The translations under genes and the position numbers were made by a program. Under the pieces are notes generated by a model. The model saw nothing but the letters and a program-made list of their open reading frames with translations. It had not been told where the DNA came from and searched no databases. Below, in pieces: positions 32,181-43,187 of a stretch of DNA of 64,000 bases. This DNA comes from Alicyclobacillaceae bacterium (GTDB lineage Bacteria; Bacillota; Bacilli; Kyrpidiales; Kyrpidiaceae), in contig JASBVN010000006.1 of assembly GCA_029961045.1 (NCBI GenBank), positions 1 through 64,000 on the forward strand, in the 5' to 3' direction. Numbering within the stretch: position 1 is the first letter of the stretch; every line of letters begins with the position of its first letter.

Positions 32181-32207
32181 TTCTCATCTTTGGTATAAGT
32201 TCGTGAG

Positions 32208-32388
32208 CCCCGCCATGCCGTGTCCCTGAGTTTTGAACCTGCTCTCGGCAGGTGGGTGACCTGCGATGCGGTTTACATGTCCGCCTTCCGCGGCCTATGC
32301 GCCCCGCACCGACTCCGGTCTCCCTTTTAGTGGGTGTTGGCTCAAAACTTCACGGTCGATCACAAACACAGAAGGGCTCACGCCGTAT
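32208..32388 (-). ncRNA. ssrS: 6S RNA (SsrS)
   Basis: A non-coding RNA lies between aspS and rarA, the same neighbourhood as bsrA in B. subtilis. Its ends close with a perfect 9-bp stem (minus 32382-32374 with 32220-32212). Inside, GTTTTGA pairs with TCAAAAC (32348-32342 with 32036-like inner arm at 32036; the paired arm is at 32236-32230). The 3' half contains CACCCACCTG...CAGGTTCAAAACTC, which I associate with Firmicute 6S RNAs. The core of about 180 bases, with its own promoter and terminator, fits a trap for housekeeping RNA polymerase. A covariance search has not been run. Confidence 0.8.
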
Positions 32389-40579: not shown

Positions 40580-41614
40580 TCACAACACCTCAATCCGCCC
40601 TGCGGGTCCTTCGATGATCTCCCCGATTGCAGCGCTGTCCGCCACCCCCGCCTTCCGGAGGGCTTCCACCAGTTCCTCCGCCCGGTCCTTGGCCACGCAC
40701 AGGAGCAACCCGCCCGAGGTCACGGCATCGCACAAAATCGTCCGCAACACGGGAGGCACGGAGGGGTGGTAATCGACCCAATCCGCCAACCACGCCTCGT
40801 TGTTCCTCGTGCCTCCGGGCACCACTCCTTGCTCCGCCAATTCCCAGGTCCCCGGCAGAACCGGCACCCGGTCCGCCAGAATCCGGATTCCGACACCGCT
40901 GGCCCTGGCGATCTCCGCCGCATGTCCAAGCAGGCCGAAACCCGTCACGTCGGTGCAGGCGTGCACGGAAAACCCCGCGGCCACTTCGGCCGCCGTCTTG
41001 TTCAGCGCCACCATGACTTCCTGCACCCGGCGGATCATGTCGTCCGTCGCCTTTTGCCTCTTGATCGCCGTCGTCACAATTCCCACGCCCACGGGCTTGG
41101 TGAGAATCAACACGTCGTCCGGCCGGGCGCCCGCATTGGTCCACATCGCCTTGGGAGACACGATCCCCGTCACGGCCATGCCGAATTTCGGCTCCGCGTC
41201 GTCGATGGAGTGGCCGCCCACGATCGTCGCGCCGGCCTCCCGAACTTTGTCCGCCCCGCCCCGCAGAATTTCCACGAGGATCCCTTTGTCGAGGCGGCTG
41301 ACGGGAAATCCGACGAGATTGAGCACCGTCAAGGGCCTGCCCCCCATTGCGTATACATCACTGAGGGCGTTGGCCGCGGCAATTTGCCCAAACACGTAAG
41401 GATCGTCTACCACCGGCGTGAAAAAGTCGACAGTCTGTACCAAAGCCAGGTCATCCGACAAACGGTAAACGCCGGCGTCATCCGACGTGTCTAGACCCAC
41501 CAGCAGGTCGGCGTCCGGCGGCATCGGAGGCAGAAGGGCCAATACTTCCTTGAGGTCCCCCGGACCGATCTTACACCCTCACCCGGCCTTGCTGGACAGG
41601 GCCGTCAGCCTCAC
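40580..41614 (-). CDS. selD: Selenide, water dikinase SelD, containing selenocysteine (in-frame TGA)
   Basis: SelD makes selenophosphate from selenide and ATP for Sec-tRNA synthesis. Read through one TGA (41581-41579) the protein is 344 residues and begins MRLTALSSKAG-U-GCKIGPG. SelD proteins carry Cys or Sec followed by GCK at exactly this catalytic site, then the Lys. Downstream are LLVGLDTSDDAGVYRLSDD, ANALSDVYAMGGRPL and VGGHSIDDAEPKFG, the ATP/Mg site. Without read-through only a TTG start at 41542 would remain, losing the active site and the glycine-rich loop. The GTG start overlaps the selA stop by 44 bases. A hairpin follows the TGA at bacterial SECIS spacing. Confidence 0.92.
41554..41581 (-). 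promoter_or_regulatory. Sec TGA codon and SECIS-like hairpin in selD
   Basis: After TGA (41581-41579) come 12 bases, then GGTCC-GGG-GGACC (41566-41554), a perfect 5-bp stem with a GGG loop. In E. coli fdhF the corresponding upper stem-loop begins 11 bases after the UGA and the loop contains G residues needed by SelB. A second possible pairing joins TGAGG, from the codon itself, with CCTCA at 41555-41551, which would compete with the first. Confidence 0.7.
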
Positions 41615-43040
41615 CCGGCTGCCGGGACCGGCTCCGGAGTTGTTCGAAGGCCCTGCGGATTCCTTCGGCACAAAGTTCCAGTTCATGGGGAAAAATCGTC
41701 CGGACATCGAGCCTCACCTCCTCTCGGTGAATCCGCCCCATAATCGGAGGTTCTCCGGTTCTGAGCGCCGTTTCGAGGGCGGCGGCCCCCCATCTCCGGC
41801 CCTCCAGCACCACAGTATAGGTGGGCAGTTCCACCGCCGGCAAGCTTCCCCCTCCTACTTGGGACACATCCGGGGTGACGCGGACCGCCACTTCGCCACC
41901 GGAGGCAGGGCGAATTGCCGCCGCCAACCGCTCCGCCGCCGTTTTCAACTCCTCCGGCCGCCGCCGGAGCATCCACAAAACCGGAATCTCCCTCGCGGCC
42001 CTCTCTTCGTCCAAGTATAGCCGCAACGTCGCTTCCAGCGCCGCCAGGGTGAGTTTATCCACCCGCAACGCCCGCGCCAACTGATGCTTTTTAAGCTTTT
42101 CGACGACATTCTTCTTACCGACGACGATGCCCGCCTGGGCCCCTCCCAGCAACTTGTCCCCGCTGAAGGAAACCACATCGACCCCCGCCGCCACGCACTC
42201 GCGAACCGTGGGCTCGTCCCCGATGCCCCACTTCCTGATGTCGAAGAGCACTCCGCTGCCCAAATCCTCGTATAAAAGGAGACTGTGCTTCCGGCACAGC
42301 GCCGCCAACTCTTCCCGCGAGGGCCGGGAAGTAAAACCCACGATGCGAAAGTTGCTGGTATGGGTGCGCATGATCATCGCCGTTTCGCCGTCGATCGCCC
42401 GTTCATAGTCGTAATCGTGGGTTTTGTTGGTCGTCCCCACCTCCACCAACCGCGCGCCGCTTTCCGCCATGACCTCCGATACCCGGAACGATCCGCCGAT
42501 CTCCACCAACTCTCCCCGGGACACAATGACATTCCGGCCGGAAGCCAAAGTCCGGAGAACCAACAACACCGCCGCGGCGTTGTTGTTGACCACCATAGCC
42601 GCCTCGGCTCCCGTCAGGCGACACAACAAATCCTCCACATGTTCGTGGCGGGACCCGCGCTTTCCCGTCTCCAGCCGCAACTCCAGGTTGCTGTATCCCC
42701 GGGCCACCCGCACGACCTGTTCGACGGCCGACTCGGCCAAGGGGGCCCTTCCGAGGTTGGTGTGCAACACCACCCCGGTGGCGTTGATCACCGGCCGAAG
42801 ATGCGGGCGGAGCTTCGATTCCACCCACTCGGCCGTCTCCCGAGCCAGTTCCTCCAGCTCCGGTACCGAGGCCACGCCCGCCAAAATGCGTTCCCGGTGG
42901 CGGGCCACAGCCCGGGATGCCCCCTCCGCCACCAATTCGCGGGGGGCCCGGCGCTGAAGATCGGCACACACCGGGTGGGACAAAATCCGATGGACGGCGG
43001 GAAGTTGCCGGAGCCGTTCTCTCCGCGTTTCGTCGATCAT
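41571..43040 (-). CDS. selA: L-seryl-tRNA(Sec) selenium transferase
   Basis: A 489-residue PLP enzyme converting Ser-tRNA(Sec) to Sec-tRNA(Sec) with selenophosphate. INATGVVLHTNLGRAPLAE, ELRLETGKRGSRHEHVEDLL, VVNNNAAAVLLVL, EVGTTNKTHDYDYERAI and the PLP Lys in FSGDKLLGGAQAG match SelA. ATG 43040 follows GGAGGGAGGG. It precedes selD and overlaps it, a Sec-synthesis operon. selB and the tRNA-Sec gene are not in this window. Confidence 0.96.
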   Translation of the reverse strand: MIDETRRERLRQLPAVHRILSHPVCADLQRRAPRELVAEGASRAVARHRERILAGVASVPELEELARETAEWVESKLRPHLRPVINATGVVLHTNLGRAPLAESAVEQVVRVARGYSNLELRLETGKRGSRHEHVEDLLCRLTGAEAAMVVNNNAAAVLLVLRTLASGRNVIVSRGELVEIGGSFRVSEVMAESGARLVEVGTTNKTHDYDYERAIDGETAMIMRTHTSNFRIVGFTSRPSREELAALCRKHSLLLYEDLGSGVLFDIRKWGIGDEPTVRECVAAGVDVVSFSGDKLLGGAQAGIVVGKKNVVEKLKKHQLARALRVDKLTLAALEATLRLYLDEERAAREIPVLWMLRRRPEELKTAAERLAAAIRPASGGEVAVRVTPDVSQVGGGSLPAVELPTYTVVLEGRRWGAAALETALRTGEPPIMGRIHREEVRLDVRTIFPHELELCAEGIRRAFEQLRSRSRQPGEADGPVQQGRVRV

Positions 43041-43187
43041 AACCGCCCTCCCTCCGGCGCGACGCGCACCGAATCCGCTCATGGTGCAGGTAACCCCATC
43101 ATATCATACGGGTCCGGCCCGACCAAGGTAGCGCAACCGCGAGGAAGTTGATAGGATGAAAAGGAGGTGGATCGGAAAGGGGTTTCC

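Follow-up and report, generated by a model that had tools for sequence, protein, structure and literature searches.

A selD gene whose active-site TGA is almost certainly a selenocysteine codon in an Alicyclobacillaceae bacterium

Is the TGA at the start of the selD gene of an Alicyclobacillaceae bacterium a stop, or does it encode selenocysteine (Sec) at the catalytic residue of the enzyme? A sequence-only reading of a stretch of 64,000 nucleotides (contig JASBVN010000006.1, positions 1 to 64,000; the window in what follows) had claimed that SelD is itself a selenoprotein, with the TGA followed by a SECIS-like hairpin. Judging from the sequence, we consider it very probable that the locus is an ordinary bacterial selA-selD pair with SelD in its selenocysteine form. 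The features discussed are collected in Table 1.

Table 1. Features of the selA-selD locus and of a second gene with an in-frame TGA
Feature	Position	Strand	Basis or remark
selD, selenide water dikinase, one in-frame TGA read through	40580..41614	(-)	TIGR00476, phmmer, Pfam; start possibly further upstream
In-frame TGA, putative Sec codon, equivalent to E. coli SelD Cys17	41579..41581	(-)	Translation, alignment
Hairpin GGTCC-GGG-GGACC, candidate bSECIS	41554..41566	(-)	Fold, register comparison, published constraints
Region of the second hairpin of most Sec-type relatives	41534..41553	(-)	No more than 2 of its 8 pairs can form in the window
selA, L-seryl-tRNA(Sec) selenium transferase	41571..43082	(-)	TIGR00474; ORF list (ATG 43082, stop 41571); directly upstream, overlapping selD
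Alternative selD start, ATG	41705..41707	(-)	Same open frame; GAGGAGG at 41723-41717
HesB/IscA-like gene (PF01521), in-frame TGA	L146:1465-1743 = G000 C54:73114-73392	(-)	Same genome as selD

Translation placed the TGA in the same frame as the GTG at 41614 and the body of selD. Read through from that GTG, the product begins VRLTALSSKAG-U-GCKIGPGDL... and meets no further stop until the TGA at 40582-40580. It contains the Pfam domains AIRS and AIRS_C, and it scores 408 bits against the SelD equivalog model TIGR00476 (curated cut-off, 125 bits), which it matches from model position 1. The form begun at the TTG at 41542 scores 374 bits and matches from model position 34, so that reading through the TGA gains 34 bits and fills in the missing N-terminus. 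A phmmer alignment to E. coli SelD (3u0o; 2.4e-79) pairs the TGA with the catalytic Cys17, the first Cys of C-G-C-K, and the Lys that belongs three residues on (UxxK) is present as U-G-C-K. Translation, alignment and gain in score together bear out the claim that the TGA occupies the catalytic position. The warning that annotation might truncate the protein was also justified: the TTG is the first start codon past the TGA, and its use would cost 24 residues including the active site.

We compared the catalytic codon among 80 selD relatives taken from one-per-species genomes. Of these, 58 have TGA and the other 22 a Cys codon (TGC or TGT), with nothing else, and the TGA of the window falls in this same column. 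When 60 related genomes were searched with the SelD model, the genes over the cut-off mostly proved to contain exactly one TGA. A tree of 105 SelDs places the window selD inside a well supported 29-row clade of its own class (20 Sec-type and 9 Cys-type rows), and the rows nearest to it are Sec-type, the best being 69% identical. For that reason we set aside a recent Cys-to-Sec conversion in the window lineage, which had been suggested by the best matches in the named genome collection being Cys-type Paenibacillus proteins. The SelD of Paenibacillus apiarius is 64% identical to that of the window. The second Cys of the motif, two residues after its start (U-G-C-K), is kept in 24/80 Sec-type rows, the window copy included, and is typical of the window's clade; the remaining Sec-type rows mostly have Ala or Ser there.

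Sec-containing SelD, or SPS2 (selenophosphate synthetase), occurs in Haemophilus influenzae, Clostridioides difficile and many other organisms. The window gene resembles these in its UGA for the catalytic residue ahead of xxK, in the AIRS fold and in the accompanying Sec trait genes; it differs in keeping the second Cys, which is the rule in its own clade and less common overall. The Cys-type SelDs of Paenibacillus and related Bacilli belong to the same clade and share the motif KxGCGCKIGPxDL, but have TGC or TGT in place of the TGA and are generally without a 5-bp hairpin at the window register. By breadth of distribution, SelD ranked second among the selenoprotein families of a 2006 survey (PMC1794560), and 19% of prokaryotic SelD genes carry Sec in another (PMC4561486). 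The novelty implied by the sequence-only reading does not hold, as the arrangement has long been known (PMC4561486, PMC1794560, PMC13188914): Sec-type SelD is common to most of the relatives examined, and the finding is correct and not new.

Both selA and selB, by which the Sec trait is recognized, are present in the genome. selA matches TIGR00474 at 610 bits (cut-off, 268 bits), and the selB expected elsewhere in the genome was found over its cut-off (TIGR00475, 387 bits), with the C-terminal RNA-binding winged helix SelB-wing_3. No tRNA-Sec (selC) came over the Rfam cut-off in the assembly, which is 79.55% complete, with 150 of 441 candidates scored; nor was it found there by two patterns, an exact one (TTCAAA...GTTCGANTCC) and a looser one. 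The sole tempting pattern match (L138) was rejected, being no tRNA by ARAGORN and having no Rfam tRNA-Sec match. As the same Rfam search detected tRNA-Sec in four relatives with Sec-type SelD (G004, G034, G036 and G053), the search itself works. Given the completeness of the assembly, the absence of tRNA-Sec is no evidence of loss, and the missing fifth could explain it. Few users of selenophosphate are visible, since neither a formate dehydrogenase (TIGR01591) nor a selenouridine synthase over the cut-off was found in the genome. Four peroxiredoxin-type AhpC-TSA matches were found, none with a TGA. A literature search on selenocysteine in Kyrpidia yielded nothing relevant.

The same genome holds a second UGA selenoprotein gene, independent of the first. 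It encodes a HesB-like product with the UGA within LPG-U-GG, a TTG start and a ribosome-binding stretch, GAGGTGAG. The codon at this site is TGA in three genomes (G016, G053 and G037) that also carry SelB and the Sec-type SelDs closest to that of the window, and a Cys codon (TGC or TGT) in the same-family genomes G001-G003. In none of the latter three did a SelD or a SelB score over the cut-off, and the Sec trait thus differs between members of the family; the window organism would use selenocysteine, and these same-family genomes appear not to. Two unrelated UGA genes tracking the Sec machinery constitute, in our view, the strongest evidence that UGA means Sec here.

This evidence bears on two other readings of the TGA, both very improbable. 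According to the first, selD is Cys-type or decayed and its TGA either a genuine stop or a mistake of the assembly; translation would yield a shortened protein begun at TTG 41542, or nothing. An AAGGAAG stretch upstream of this TTG would suit such a protein, as would the failure to find tRNA-Sec in the 79.55% complete assembly. Yet this would put the stop precisely at the only residue for which Sec is known, a site of TGA in most relatives, in a genome with selA and selB intact; the remainder of selD is intact too, with an equivalog-level score, and TGA also stands at the known Sec site of a second gene, from a known selenoprotein family. A shade less probable still is read-through of the UGA as another amino acid such as Trp or Cys, by general reassignment or near-cognate suppression, which the unseen tRNA-Sec of the 79.55% complete assembly would also fit, but UGA is still a stop (it terminates the selD frame at 40580-40582), SelA and SelB are present, and only Cys codons alternate with TGA in relatives.

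We regard the active-site UGA of selD as almost certainly read as selenocysteine and not as a stop. SelB with Sec-tRNA(Sec) would read the UGA at 41581-41579 as Sec, giving ...KAG-Sec-GCK..., and this Sec, with the following Lys, would serve as the catalytic residue of SelD in forming selenophosphate from selenide and ATP. SelA would use the selenophosphate for Sec-tRNA(Sec), and both SelD and at least one other selenoprotein, the HesB-like product, would in turn require this tRNA. Synthesis of SelD would then depend on selenium supply. This circular dependence, of a selenoprotein needing its own product, is a known and already established consequence of Sec-type SelD.

Which RNA element would direct the insertion is a separate matter. 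The hairpin GGTCC-GGG-GGACC begins exactly 12 bases after the TGA, as had been claimed, with arms at 41566-41562 and 41558-41554 and a GGG loop. Published constraints on bSECIS elements are a loop of 3-9 nt with G in the first two loop positions, a stem of 4-16 bp, a spacing of 16-37 nt and an MFE at or below -7.5 (PMC13188914). The window hairpin agrees with every one of them (a stem of 5 bp, an apical loop of 3 nt with G first and 17 nt from the UGA, -7.5 kcal/mol), although for this gene alone it does not stand out from shuffled sequence: the downstream stretch folds as well in 139 of 200 shuffles, and the codon-shuffle z is about -0.3. Among sequences simulated for the given protein with selA and selD codon usage, 3.3% showed perfect pairing at the hairpin register. 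Perfect pairing at this register is found in 26/79 Sec-type versus 1/25 Cys-type relatives (p = 0.003), and the downstream RNA compared with codon-shuffled controls has a mean z of -1.40 in Sec-type and +0.33 in Cys-type selD (p = 1e-9); both p values overstate independence, as the rows are related by descent.

Among 26 Sec-type genes, mostly from the window's clade and its neighbours, two helices were compared. The first, at the window register, is 86% paired and varies by G-U wobble only. The second joins columns 29-36 with 40-47, its apical loop lying 34-36 nt past the UGA; 93% of its cells are paired, and four pairs have changed on both sides. Many Sec-type selD genes (L096-L116) have both hairpins in succession after the UGA; these may therefore stand in for each other as SECIS elements or cooperate. 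The window has the first only, the covarying hairpin of its relatives, further 3', being evidently lost from its selD. GGTCC-GGG-GGACC is plausibly the best SECIS candidate of the window selD. Its position and its agreement with the published constraints stood, its strength over shuffles did not, and the assignment is less certain than claimed because the covarying hairpin of the relatives is a different one. That the SECIS shifted in this lineage, the second hairpin being lost and GGTCC-GGG-GGACC alone directing Sec insertion, is a tentative scenario that we lean somewhat against.

The start of selD also called for revision. The claimed GTG at 41614 is in frame, and with it selD overlaps the end of selA by 44 nt; selA lies directly upstream and overlapping, as had been read. 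As the true start, however, this GTG is doubtful: it is without a Shine-Dalgarno sequence, whereas the ATG at 41707 has the strong GAGGAGG ahead of it, with an in-frame stop upstream at 41716. This ATG is a probable alternative start. The frame upstream of RLT is likewise open in three relatives (L099, L101 and L102). Initiation at the ATG would move the Sec from residue 12 to residue 43, and the selD product may be 31 residues longer, with a deeper selA overlap. The GAGGAGG falls within the selA coding sequence and so is no proof of this start. Recovering the N-terminus is useful for annotation, since it rescues the gene from a truncation that would remove its active site. Elsewhere in the window, at 32203-32380 on the minus strand, a complete match to 6S RNA (RF00013) was seen at 100 bits.
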